This document shows, in pieces, positions 29,609 through 32,791 of a stretch of 32,791 nucleotides of DNA. The number at the start of each line of letters is the position of its first letter. Position 1 is the stretch's first letter. The notes beneath the pieces are model-generated. The model did not search any database. It had not been told where the DNA came from and saw only the letters and a program-made list of their open reading frames with translations. A program made the translations under genes and the position numbers. Origin of the DNA: Erysipelotrichaceae bacterium (GTDB lineage Bacteria; Bacillota_I; Bacilli_A; Erysipelotrichales; Erysipelotrichaceae); NCBI GenBank assembly GCA_012516665.1, contig JAAYWN010000174.1:1-32791 (forward strand). The letters are read 5' to 3'.

Positions 29609-29638
29609 AAATGTTTTCTGAAACATACTGAAATATTG

Positions 29639-29644
29639 TATAAT
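29639..29644 (+). promoter_or_regulatory. -10 box of the aminotransferase-regulator operon
   Basis: Consensus TATAAT, 30 bases after the uvrB stop. A small inverted repeat ATGTTT-TCTG-AAACAT (29611-29626) lies where the -35 would be and might be an operator, for example for the Lrp-type regulator encoded in the same operon. The -35 itself is weak. Confidence 0.5.
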
Positions 29645-29671
29645 AAAGAGAATCAGAAGGGATGGCAATAT

Positions 29672-30859
29672 ATGTTGGATTATGAAAAGCTGCAGTCAAA
29701 AACTGCCTTGGCGATGAGACCATCCGGGATCCGCAAGTTCTTTGATCTTGTTATGGATATGCCGGAATGCATATCTTTAGGCGTCGGAGAACCGGATTTC
29801 CAGACACCTTGGACGATCCGCGAATCAGCGATCCATTCATTGGAACTGGGCCGGACAAAGTATACGGCCAATGCAGGACTGAAGCCATTGCGTCAGGCAA
29901 TCAGCACGTATATGAAACGGAAATATGATATGGATTACGGCATTGATGATATGATCGTGACCGTTGGCGGATCAGAAGCAATTGATCTGGCGATCCGGGC
30001 AATGGTGGAGCCGGGCGATGAAGTCATTATCCCAGAACCATGCTATGTATCCTATGAACCAATTACAACGCTGACGGGCGGTGTTGCAGTCCCGATCGCT
30101 ACAAAAGAAAAAGATCTTTTCCGCGTCACGGCCGCCGATATCAAAAAAGCGATCACGCCGAGGACTAAGCTTCTTGTACTGAGCTATCCGAACAATCCGA
30201 CTGGAGCGATCCTCGAACATCAGGATCTGGCGGAGATTGCCCAAGTGCTGAAGGATACCAATGTGATCGTGATCAGCGATGAGATCTATGCGGCATTGAT
30301 CTACAGTGATGCCCCATATGAAAGCATTGCGCATCTTCCCGGTATGAAAGAGAGAACGATCGTCGTCAATGGCTTCTCTAAAACATATTCCATGACCGGC
30401 TGGCGCTTAGGATATGCCTGCGGGCCTAGACCTTTGATCAAGACCATGATCAAGATCCATCAGTCATGCATCATGACGGCACCGACTACTTCCCAGTATG
30501 CGGCGATTGATGCACTGAATGTCAAGGTGGATGAAGAAGTTGAAAAGATGAGACAGGAATATGATTTCCGCCGCAGATACTGTGTACGGAAGCTGAATGA
30601 AATGGGCCTGCCTACCTTTGAACCGAAGGGTGCTTTCTATGTCTTTCCGAATATTTCCTGCTCAGGTATGAGCAGTGATGAATTCTGCATGAAGCTGCTG
30701 GAACAGAAGCAGGTAGCTATTGTGCCTGGTACGGCGTTCGGTGCTTCAGGGGAAGGTTTTGCCCGTATTTCATATGCATACAGTCTGGATCATCTGCAGA
30801 CAGCAATGCGGCGCATTGAAGAGTTCTTAAAAGAGAATCATATGTATAAAGGAGAATGA
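29672..30859 (+). CDS. alaT: Class I/II PLP aminotransferase (AlaT/PatA-like)
   Basis: A 395-residue cytoplasmic aminotransferase of fold type I. The PLP lysine is Lys237 (GFSKTYSMTGWRLGY), with Asn175 (SYPNNPTG), Asp203 and Tyr206 (SDEIYA) for the cofactor and the expected carboxylate-binding Arg. The start ATG follows AAGGGATGG; an upstream TTG overlaps the -10. It is followed, overlapping, by an Lrp/AsnC regulator, the same partnership as B. subtilis alanine transaminase AlaT and AlaR (YugH/YugG), which is the basis for the tentative symbol. An aspartate or other amino acid specificity remains possible. Confidence 0.82.
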   Translation: MLDYEKLQSKTALAMRPSGIRKFFDLVMDMPECISLGVGEPDFQTPWTIRESAIHSLELGRTKYTANAGLKPLRQAISTYMKRKYDMDYGIDDMIVTVGGSEAIDLAIRAMVEPGDEVIIPEPCYVSYEPITTLTGGVAVPIATKEKDLFRVTAADIKKAITPRTKLLVLSYPNNPTGAILEHQDLAEIAQVLKDTNVIVISDEIYAALIYSDAPYESIAHLPGMKERTIVVNGFSKTYSMTGWRLGYACGPRPLIKTMIKIHQSCIMTAPTTSQYAAIDALNVKVDEEVEKMRQEYDFRRRYCVRKLNEMGLPTFEPKGAFYVFPNISCSGMSSDEFCMKLLEQKQVAIVPGTAFGASGEGFARISYAYSLDHLQTAMRRIEEFLKENHMYKGE

Positions 30860-30861
30860 TG

Positions 30862-31353
30862 ATGGATACAAATAAACTGCTTCAGCTGCTGGTCAATGAT
30901 CCAAGAGCCACAGTGACAGATCTCGCCGATGTATTAGGCGAGAAAGAAACAGATGTAGAAGCTGCCAAAGATGGTCTGGAAAAAGAGAAGATCATCTGCG
31001 GCTATCATACGGTGATCAATTGGGATAAGACCAATATTGAGCATGTCGATGCTGTCATTGCTGTTTCGGCAAAGCCAGAGCGCAATACAGGCTATGATAA
31101 GATTGCTCAGCGCATTGCAAAGTTCCCGGAAGTTTCTTCCCTGTATCTGATGTCAGGCGGATCGGAATTTCTAGTCAATGTCAATGCAAAAACGATGCGG
31201 GAAGTCGCAGATTTTGTCGGTGAGAAGCTGGCACCGGTCGAGGGTGTTTCCCAGACCACGACCATGTTCATACTGAAAAAATATAAGGTCAATGGTGTTG
31301 CCATGGATCTCGAACCGGAAGTAGAAGATGATCGTATGCCGGTATCGGCATAG
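30862..31353 (+). CDS. alaR: Lrp/AsnC family transcriptional regulator
   Basis: A 163-residue regulator. A winged helix-turn-helix (about 3-50, with LLQLLVNDPRATVTDLADVL and IICGYHTVINWDK) is joined to a RAM/AsnC ligand-sensing domain (about 65-145). Three in-frame ATGs lie at 30856, 30859 and 30862; the last is 7 bases from AAAGGAG and is preferred. The region overlaps the aminotransferase stop, so it is cotranscribed and probably controls that operon in response to an amino acid such as alanine. The C-terminal acidic tail is short and variable. The symbol is by analogy. Confidence 0.82.
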   Translation: MDTNKLLQLLVNDPRATVTDLADVLGEKETDVEAAKDGLEKEKIICGYHTVINWDKTNIEHVDAVIAVSAKPERNTGYDKIAQRIAKFPEVSSLYLMSGGSEFLVNVNAKTMREVADFVGEKLAPVEGVSQTTTMFILKKYKVNGVAMDLEPEVEDDRMPVSA

Positions 31354-31411: not shown

Positions 31412-32365
31412 ATGAGCAATTTTGAAATTTTCCGCAGGACATTTACCTTCTCATGGCAGCGTCTGTTTGTTTATCTGATCGGCATCGCCGTGATGATCGC
31501 ATGCACAGCAGCTGGCTATCTGCTCAAACCAGACGATGTGATAGGTCTCGGCGTAGGATTTGTGGTCGGCCTGATCATCTTTGGCCTGATCGTTCATTAT
31601 ATTGCTTATCTGCTGAAAGCAGCGCAGATCGCAATGATCACGAAAGCAGTTGTCGAGAATGAACTGCCGGAGCATGTATCCAAAGAAGGCAAAGCAATCG
31701 TGAAGAAAAGATTTGTTACAGTATCCGTCTATTACGCGATCACGGGAACGATCAATGGCATCTTCGGCGAACTGACAAGAGGACTGAACAGTCTGGCTTC
31801 CGGCGGCGGTGAAGCTGTGGAAGGCGTGACCAGTGCTGTCAGTGCTTTGATCAATACAGCGGTTGCCTATTTGTGCAGCTGCTGCCTAGGCTGGGTATTC
31901 TACCGCAAGGATGAGAATGCTTTTAAAGCGACTTGTGAAGGAGCAGTTCTCTATTTTAAAAATTGGAAGACACTGATCAAGAATATGGGCAGAGTATTGG
32001 GCATGGGACTTGTTTCCCTGCTGATCATCGGCGGCCTGCTTGGCGTTGGCTACTATGCTTTATTCAGCAATTTCCCAGACTTTGTTTCAGGGGCAGCACA
32101 GGTCATTGCGTCCGCCAGTGAAACGGGTGAAGAAGCTGCTGATCCTACAACAGCATTGATGATCGTCTCGGCGATGTTTGCCTTGATCAGCTGGATCGTC
32201 CTGCATTCTGTCTTTGTCCGTCCGTTCGTATTGGTCGGCGTCATGCGCAATTATATGAAGGCTGGTATGGCCAGCACCCCGGCAGAAGCAGATATGGCAC
32301 AGCTGGACGGCCTTTCCAAAAAGTTCCGCAAGGCACACGCCAAAGCTCAGGAACAGACTGCCTGA
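31412..32365 (+). CDS. Multi-pass membrane protein of unknown function
   Basis: A 317-residue protein I cannot place in a named family. It has about six hydrophobic segments: 16-37, 43-68, 105-125, 135-160, 192-217 and 245-275. A Gly-rich amphipathic stretch (SGGGEAVEGVTSAV) and a twin-cysteine segment CSCCLGWVFYRKDENAFKA near 152-170 stand out. The C-terminal 40 residues are soluble and charged (AEADMAQLDGLSKKFRKAHA). GAGGGGAG precedes the ATG. It follows the regulator by 58 bases without an evident terminator, so cotranscription is possible. Confidence 0.7.
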   Translation: MSNFEIFRRTFTFSWQRLFVYLIGIAVMIACTAAGYLLKPDDVIGLGVGFVVGLIIFGLIVHYIAYLLKAAQIAMITKAVVENELPEHVSKEGKAIVKKRFVTVSVYYAITGTINGIFGELTRGLNSLASGGGEAVEGVTSAVSALINTAVAYLCSCCLGWVFYRKDENAFKATCEGAVLYFKNWKTLIKNMGRVLGMGLVSLLIIGGLLGVGYYALFSNFPDFVSGAAQVIASASETGEEAADPTTALMIVSAMFALISWIVLHSVFVRPFVLVGVMRNYMKAGMASTPAEADMAQLDGLSKKFRKAHAKAQEQTA

Positions 32366-32375
32366 AGAAAGTTTA

Positions 32376-32404
32376 TTGACATTCTGAAAACAAAAAGCTA
32401 ATAT
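32376..32404 (+). promoter_or_regulatory. Promoter of the MATE gene leader
   Basis: A perfect TTGACA (32376-32381), 17 bases, then TAATAT (32399-32404). The start would be near 32411, directly before the structured leader. It is the best -35 in the window. Confidence 0.8.
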
Positions 32405-32410
32405 ACCAAT

Positions 32411-32500
32411 TGCTCACTCGGAGGCAGGTTATTCGATAGAAATAACAAGCCGGATAAGGTGGCAGACTGAAATGTCTGCTGTCTCATCCGGCTTTTTGTT
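32411..32500 (+). ncRNA. Structured leader with terminator; candidate guanidine-IV (mepA) riboswitch
   Basis: The leader contains a hairpin GTTATT/AATAAC (32428-32433 with 32441-32446) and a strong two-part terminator: AGCCGGAT (32448-32455) with ATCCGGCT (32486-32493), and inner GCAGAC (32462-32467) with GTCTGC (32474-32479), then five T's. An alternative pairing of GAGGCAG (32421-32427) with CTGTCTC (32479-32485, one G-U) would break the terminator. A terminator between a promoter and a MATE gene implies attenuation. The mepA motif (guanidine-IV riboswitch) is known before MATE genes in Bacillota, so it is the leading candidate, but I cannot check the consensus. Confidence 0.55.
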
Positions 32501-32522
32501 TGTTGTTTATAGGAGGGAATAT

Positions 32523-32791
32523 ATGACAGATTTTTTGCATGGAGATTTAAAAAAGATTTACCTGAAGTATTTAGCGGCATCTTTTGGCAGTGCTTTTGCC
32601 TCATCGATCTACGGTGTGGTGGACATGGTCATGGTCGGCCAGTACCATGGTCCATCAGGATAAGCAGCCATGGCCATCATTGCGCCAATCTGGAACATTC
32701 TTTACAGCTTCGGCCTGCTGGCGGGCATCGGCGGATCGGTGCTCTTCAGCGCAGCCAGAGGAAAAGGCAAGAGCAGACAGGAGCAGAATGA
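32523..32791 (+). pseudogene. MATE-family efflux transporter, interrupted by an in-frame stop; right end cut by the window
   Basis: The ATG follows AGGAGG. The N-terminal 46 residues are MATE-like (first helix with SSIYGVVDMVMVGQYHG). A TAA at 32661-32663 then stops the frame, yet the same frame continues without a break to the window end with the expected next MATE segment, AAMAIIAPIWNILYSFGLL and GGSVLFSAARGKG. Family members usually have Thr or a similar residue where the stop lies (G-T-A-A-L-A). This is therefore a nonsense mutation or a base-call error, not a frameshift. An internal restart at 32670 would lose the first helix. The full length is not visible. Confidence 0.8.

Follow-up and report, generated by a model that had tools for sequence, protein, structure and literature searches.

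The leader described here is located at the end of a 32,791-nucleotide stretch of DNA (the window), which is contig JAAYWN010000174.1 of the Erysipelotrichaceae bacterium assembly GCA_012516665.1. Together with its promoter, it occupies the space between a membrane-protein-like gene (31412-32365), for which no Pfam match was found, and the ATG start codon (32523-32525) of a gene for a MATE exporter. The A of this codon is also where the region marked out by the initial annotation ends (32523). Farther upstream, an aminotransferase gene is followed by an overlapping gene for an Lrp/AsnC regulator (29636-31353), as identified by Pfam. The features of the site are collected in Table 1.

Table 1. 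Features of the exporter leader and its immediate surroundings (window coordinates).
Feature	Positions	Strand	Details
Sigma-70-type promoter	32376-32404	+	TTGACA 32376-32381, 17-base spacer, TAATAT 32399-32404
Leader RNA, inferred transcription start to end of U-rich tract	32411-32499	+	Placed from R1 match and promoter positions
Pseudoknot 5' strand UCAC, RNA 5' end	32414-32417	+	Partner 32459-32462; family-wide compensation
Unpaired CGGAGG, nearly invariant	32419-32424	+	C 97, G 99, G 96, A 97, G 99, G 98 of 99
Hairpin H1, GUUAUU/AAUAAC	32428-32446	+	Strands 32428-32433/32441-32446; 6/6 pairs double-changed in family
Terminator stem P2, AGCCGGAU/AUCCGGCU	32448-32493	+	Strands 32448-32455/32486-32493; 98.7% of cells paired; 4/8 pairs double-changed in family
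AAG adjoining P2, invariant	32456-32458	+	99/99 at each position
Pseudoknot 3' strand GUGG, terminator left side	32459-32462	+	Family-wide compensation
Hairpin atop P2, GNRA-like loop	32463-32478	+	Strands 32463-32467/32474-32478; 5/5 pairs double-changed; G and last A of GNRA 99/99
U-rich tract, intrinsic terminator	32493-32499	+	Read from sequence letters
Start of MATE exporter gene	32523-32791	+	In-frame TAA 32661-32663; runs off contig, remainder on contig C144

The initial annotation had claimed a perfect TTGACA promoter, a hairpin and a two-layer terminator at this site, and all three are present. The intrinsic terminator spans positions 32448-32499 and consists of an outer stem, an inner hairpin and a U-rich tail; in its full form, positions 32459-32462 pair with 32479-32482. 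The region from 32400 to 32505 folds with a predicted energy of -38 kcal/mol, compared with -23.0 +/- 3.2 for shuffled sequences, which is 4.7 standard deviations better than dinucleotide shuffles, and none of 200 shuffles is as good. A simple terminator scan of the window did not list the leader terminator (0 found at the site).

Related leaders occur in the genus. A nucleotide search of 40 genomes of the genus (titled Solobacterium) matched six, the window's own genome included, and four of the other five matched genomes contain a related leader (L004, L005, L006 and L008; L007 is without one). These five leaders, including that of the window, make up a first alignment (A2), from which a covariance model (R1) was built. 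The R1 match in the window extends from 32413 to 32500 and scores 95.1 bits, the window being one of the five seed rows. The opposite strand gives a weak match of 27 bits at the same site because the terminator is palindromic. R1 matches 19 of the 70 genomes taken from the genus, the own genome included, and 13 of 392 from the phylum; of these 13, one is the own genome, three belong to its family and nine to its order.

Named genomes, scanned with a sequence pattern, gave at least 118 stretches, 80 of which were turned into loci. Among the matches listed, 74 of these 80 loci match R1 at 44.6 bits or more; the other six (L087, L098, L110, L120, L130 and L148) have no R1 match and are taken as chance matches to the pattern. 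The matching records, again among the matches listed, come from Lachnospiraceae, Oscillospiraceae, other Clostridia and Erysipelotrichia, from five Treponema (L079, L100, L123, L125 and L127, the last from a genome whose title is not marked as a metagenome-assembled genome, or MAG), from two Gastranaerophilales MAGs (L152 and L154) and from one Eggerthellaceae MAG (L155); membership of the last two groups is founded solely on MAGs. Three loci are duplicates (L149 of L013, L156 of L016 and L092 of L018). In a sample of 249 genomes from the phylum of genome G462, for which few candidates per genome were scored (17 among the matches listed), matches are found in four, namely G462, the divergent members L243 and L244, and L245, which is judged to be a plain terminator. 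The divergent leaders keep CAU-CGGAGGG and GGAUAAG-AUG, and their other hairpins are changed. A loose pattern yielded 13 matches in viral contigs, none of them with an R1 match at an E-value of 1 or better. The carriers are apparently anaerobic, gut-living bacteria, as judged from record titles. Some of these titles name an animal gut or rumen as the source, and for the remaining carriers we assume the habitat from series names and genera.

The secondary structure is well supported by covariation. Two alignments, A4 with 31 rows and A6 with 100 rows (including a single antisense match), were fitted to the structure of the model and so lean to it; in both, 15 of 19 pairs are changed at both partners, with 97.2% of cells paired in A4 and 98.0% in A6. 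Double changes occur in 234 cells of A6, compared with 55 after shuffling, and none of 500 shuffles is as high on any of the five measures used. When partners are slid by one to three columns as a control, 22-47% of the cells in A4 and A6 pair. The hairpin at the top of the terminator corresponds to helix 56-60/68-72 of A6, in which every pair is double-changed. RNAalifold recovers the same three helices (H1, P2 and the top hairpin) from a 99-row alignment, A7, with small differences at the ends. A lack of conserved structure in homologous leaders, which was part of the grounds on which the initial annotation would have given up its proposal, is clearly not what the family presents: the structure is strongly conserved.

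The family supports a second pairing, which is absent from the initial annotation and which in the window joins 32414-32417 with 32459-32462. It is a pseudoknot between the bases preceding CGGAGG and those following GGAUAAG, and at least three contiguous pairs can form in 77 of 99 leaders. When each combination is counted once, 40 of 57 pair; reshuffling the partners gives 16.9 +/- 2.6, and none of 5000 reshuffled sets is as high. This control removes relatedness only partly; several different compensated states are seen nonetheless, including UGC/GCA, CAC/GUG, CAU/AUG, UAC/GUA and GGC/GCC. The pseudoknot was spotted by eye in the same alignment that was later used to test it.

Three other elements were considered and set aside. 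The initial annotation had proposed a 7-bp antiterminator pairing between GAGGCAG (32421-32427) and CTGTCTC (32479-32485). The letters do allow this pairing, with one G-U, but as a conserved element it fails: 45 of the 99 members allow a run of at least six pairs, versus 41% with shuffled partners, and 29 of 300 shuffles are as high. A 5' hairpin, UUGC[UCGGAGG]GCRA, was rejected as the main first element, with 31 of 63 unique combinations pairing compared with 26.2 after shuffling (82 of 5000 as high); a weak excess remains, and support for a hairpin around CGGAGG is weak at best. A leader peptide was rejected by inspection, because no start codon occurs at a constant place after GGAGG and the lengths of members vary without a frame.

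A -10 box with at least five of six matching positions is found upstream of 63 of 98 leaders, whereas control windows taken 300 bases upstream have one in 15 of 95 cases. In 43 of the 63 it lies 13-15 bases ahead of GGAGG, and in 52 of the 63 a -35 box is present at the usual spacing. The first bases of the motif should thus be where transcription begins, which would make the pseudoknot strand the 5' end of the RNA. Such a start leaves no space for a hairpin with this strand in its loop. The RNA is approximately 85-90 nucleotides long, counted from its inferred start to the terminator.

Most leaders precede exporter genes. A profile HMM was made from 43 downstream proteins and tested behind 105 leaders (three of which are duplicates); MATE-like sequence is found behind 89 of them, and none behind 16. 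Independently of the HMM, open frames were taken from 70 of the 74 named loci; L106, L157 and L097 are without an open frame of 40 residues, and L122 was omitted for an undetermined residue. Among the matches listed for these frames, Pfam MatE is found in 54 of the 70, and the rest include one ABC exporter (L138), one MFS exporter (L155), and one each of a GNAT protein, a response regulator, an HD protein and an integrase fragment. Some of the frames without MatE are wrong picks, as in L111, L124 and L132, where the HMM does find MATE. The 22 families in the matches listed over the 70 frames include no SMR (PF00893) and no aminotransferase family. Two groups of MATE proteins share the leader, with a distinguishing sequence motif in 16 versus 24 of the 43 seed proteins, and one representative of each group shows 21% identity to the other over 372 residues. 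The divergent leaders L243 and L244 precede proteins that were read by eye as MFS exporters.

Genes behind the exporters are mostly not shared between loci. Among 42 loci with a downstream frame of at least 400 residues (mostly MATE) and at least 500 bases beyond it, 31 have a following open frame on the same strand, and just two families recur, in four and three loci; neither is an evident regulator, as judged by eye. The gene right behind the MATE gene in L101, L102, L103 and L116 is one we take to be cytidylate-kinase-like, and the same kind of gene follows the leader in L093, with no MATE gene between.

The exporter gene of the window itself is interrupted. The in-frame TAA (32661-32663) comes after codon 46 and falls within 139 bases of overlap between this contig and C144, where the gene continues. 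The 394-residue remainder on C144 matches Pfam MatE (E-value 6.5e-29), and the two MATE fragments within the window have no Pfam match. A sister genome, G002, has the same leader before a MATE gene from which most of the middle is missing, as read by eye; at this locus (L015), only the N- and C-terminal ends of the protein are encoded downstream of the leader at 1501-1588. Similarly, a leader precedes what by eye is a C-terminal MATE remnant in L099 (after position 1798). Many other carriers have intact exporter genes behind the leader. The copy in the window may be a decaying gene or pseudogene, or the TAA may reflect strain variation or a mistake in the assembly. Given the interrupted gene here and the deletion in G002, the switch at this locus may be a relic.

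Comparison with known RNA classes was made at several levels. The initial annotation had suggested a scan with Rfam covariance models, and in Rfam 15 nothing in the window exceeds the gathering threshold except a tRNA (304-385), nor does a local scan by E-value list any riboswitch family. The Rfam scan gives no match in 20 loci of the family. In 20 of 30 SMR loci from the phylum of Oscillibacter ruminantium it labels three RNAs as Guanidine-I and none as guanidine-IV. This outcome is not decisive alone, the Rfam copy probably being without a usable guanidine-IV model, because L217, L220 and L230, whose RNAs we take as guanidine-IV-type, are among those 20 and are left unlabelled. SMR genes were found in 38 of 299 genomes from the phylum of O. 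ruminantium and in 21 of 54 from the family of an Eggerthellaceae MAG; none of 245 genomes of the window's own phylum has an SMR gene at an E-value of 1e-15. Plasmid searches for guanidine exporters of Firmicutes were swamped by matches from enterobacteria.

In some of the SMR-gene leaders, the first loop contains GCCG and the second UAGGCC. Leaders with both loops and a terminator are found at L217, L220, L230, L233, L246, L249, L250, L261, L265, L266 and L267; eight of these precede SMR genes and three, from Eggerthellaceae, precede another gene, which we take to encode a B3/4-domain protein. The leaders with GCCG and UAGGCC loops are likely guanidine-IV riboswitches, because SMR genes are their neighbors in Eggerthellaceae, because a published emrE example of the class comes from Raoultibacter timonensis, also of the Eggerthellaceae (PMC7736828), and because a further leader of this type, in the Treponema locus L079, has the G-U-N4-G spacing. 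This last leader reproduces the A29-U72, C30-G71 and G77 arrangement of the Clostridium botulinum RNA, in which these pairs and the conserved G77 are described (PMC11611296).

The Treponema MAG of L079 carries both kinds of leader: a member of the present family at 1138-1225, before a MATE gene, and just behind that gene the guanidine-IV-type leader at 2642-2735. A covariance model (R3) was made from nine guanidine-IV-type leaders, the identity of its rows being inferred. It scores 78.0 and 71.1 bits on two such leaders held out from it and 59.9 bits on the one behind the L079 MATE gene, and it finds no leader of the present family in 98 sources (the window, which is also L014, with 96 of the other 98 loci of A7, L033 and L038 being omitted, and L243). 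Its other matches in these sources reach at most 16.8 bits and lie away from the leaders. In the reverse direction, a fuller model (R2), built from 99 leaders of the family, finds nothing above 18.4 bits across the 30 SMR loci and 25 loci with PRK07324-like genes. The best R1 match in the SMR loci (20.2 bits, E-value 0.0045) is located behind the SMR gene of L226 with its pairs broken, and is judged to be due to chance.

The leader is probably a cis-acting transcription attenuator of exporter genes, and most likely a riboswitch whose class is without a match in Rfam 15. The family has the general marks of a riboswitch, in that a conserved, structured cis leader stands, in several phyla, ahead of genes that share one theme without being homologous. 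We lean, on balance, toward a new riboswitch class with a fold of its own, in which the free 5' end would form a pseudoknot with a three-part terminator hairpin, and which would sense a toxic compound of the gut or rumen and turn on MATE, ABC or MFS exporters in up to four phyla. The initial annotation had left the choice between a guanidine-IV riboswitch and an undescribed ligand-responsive leader; the second half of this proposal is the better supported, and the first is not supported. Open-licence literature, apart from bioRxiv and supplementary files, yielded no published description of the class, which is a weak negative.

In the proposed mechanism, a ligand would bind a pocket made of CGGAGG, AAG and the pseudoknot while the 3' strand of the terminator is still being transcribed. 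The ligand-held pseudoknot would then occupy 32459-32462, which otherwise pair with 32479-32482 in the full terminator, termination would be weakened, and the exporter would be expressed. The outer stem P2 itself does not overlap the pseudoknot. The direction of control, toward expression, is suggested by analogy and by the competing pairing seen in the window. Because the targets are exporters, the ligand is likely a toxic small molecule from the habitats of the carriers, which the exporter would expel.

A riboswitch that controls a transporter gives a clue to the natural substrate of that transporter, and guanidine riboswitches revealed guanidine exporters in this way. For most MATE exporters, the substrates are not known. 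A leader common to two distant MATE groups and to single ABC and MFS exporters, in several phyla, would point to one common, biologically relevant toxic compound, and the leader, with a length of approximately 90 nucleotides and a transcription readout, would be a ready sensor for finding it.

An alternative that we regard as unlikely, though worth serious attention, is that the leader belongs to the published Gd4v motif, an orphan variant of guanidine-IV, and is found here mainly before MATE genes. The Gd4v source describes a terminator hairpin that carries a further hairpin (D2) at its top, together with a pseudoknot and a bulge opposite the pseudoknot strand, as well as MATE genes among the targets and enrichment in mammalian guts (PMC9788692). 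This anatomy, the MATE targets and the gut bacteria fit the present family, with habitat on our side known by record titles only; Gd4v is likewise reported from several phyla, as is this leader family. However, more than 50% of Gd4v RNAs precede PRK07324 transaminases (PMC9788692), whereas no aminotransferase family appears among the matches listed for the 70 downstream frames. Moreover, neither R1 nor R2 gives a match above 10.0 bits in the 25 PRK07324-like loci, of which seven are above the family cut-off (21 loci, three above the cut-off, from the window's own phylum and four, all above it, from the phylum of G462). In loci L045-L065, which have no R1 leader, the PRK07324-like genes often come after the end of a gene read by eye as an ABC-transporter ATPase.

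The same source calls Gd4v extremely similar to guanidine-IV and has the loops of stem 1 and stem 2 meet (PMC9788692), whereas in the present family the free 5' end, not a loop, supplies the pseudoknot strand, and the model of guanidine-IV-type leaders scores none of its members. The conserved letters mutated in Gd4v include U58 (PMC9788692). If the invariant G51 of the family neighbors the equivalent of U58, the next base here is G in 64, A in 34 and a gap in 1 of 99 leaders. The conserved letters of the family are also unlike those of guanidine-IV-type leaders, a comparison that reaches Gd4v only through its published description.

It is improbable, though the sequence data fit a protein as well as a small molecule, that a trans-acting RNA-binding antiterminator protein recognizes the conserved unpaired bases. 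Among the genes behind the exporters, the two recurrent families include no evident regulator, and a single shared regulator is less likely for a motif carried by several phyla. About as improbable is a leader that merely terminates transcription constitutively, or a small RNA, with no ligand control in either case: short RNAs can be released where a terminator has a promoter of its own, but nearly invariant unpaired letters, a compensated pseudoknot and a usual place before exporters would be unexpected for a plain terminator. Least of all, and with very little probability, is the leader a guanidine-binding guanidine-IV riboswitch (the mepA motif, or GGAM-1), as the initial annotation had entertained: terminator-embedded pseudoknots and MATE genes are known there too (PMC7736828 and PMC12186494), but SMR genes such as sugE, the commonest guanidine-IV target according to the first of these, are missing from the 70 frames among the matches listed, R2 and R3 do not cross-match, and both leader kinds stand side by side on the L079 contig.

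If the leader is a new riboswitch class as we favor, its working principle resembles that of guanidine-IV, as far as sequence comparison can tell, and the first domain and the conserved letters differ. In both, a pseudoknot reaches into the terminator hairpin and exporters, including MATE, are controlled at transcription; in both, too, the C of a CG dimer pairs into the second hairpin, which here would be C7 of CGGAGG with G51, both nearly invariant. In contrast, the pseudoknot strand of guanidine-IV is in a hairpin loop, and its loop-loop pseudoknot is not seen in the family, where the supported strand would be the free 5' end ahead of H1. Likewise, the G-U....G of the second guanidine-IV loop (G71, U72 and G77) and the pairs C30-G71 and A29-U72 have no counterpart in the family in the register we infer. 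In our own reading of the nine modelled leaders and L079, guanidine-IV has GNCGGG and UAGNCC..AG, whereas the family has CGGAGG and GGAUAAG and an extra terminator hairpin. Gd4v is set apart, by description, through its aminotransferase targets and its likeness to guanidine-IV, neither of which is seen in the present family, as regards the targets among the 70 downstream frames.

The Guanidine-I riboswitch (RF00442) contains near its 3' end the string CGGAGGGAUAAA, which by eye is loosely like CGGAGGG and GGAUAAG; it differs in fold, and no Rfam match to it occurs in the 20 family loci. In L214, L216 and L229, a guanidine-I string, CACGGAGGGAUAAAAGCC, resembles the same two elements of the family by eye. 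The HMP-PP riboswitch (thiS motif) also has an aptamer embedded in a terminator stem (PMC7266159), but it controls thiamin genes, and the family has no Rfam match to it. Beside these systems, the leader would represent a second, differently built way to place a ligand-controlled pseudoknot in a terminator.
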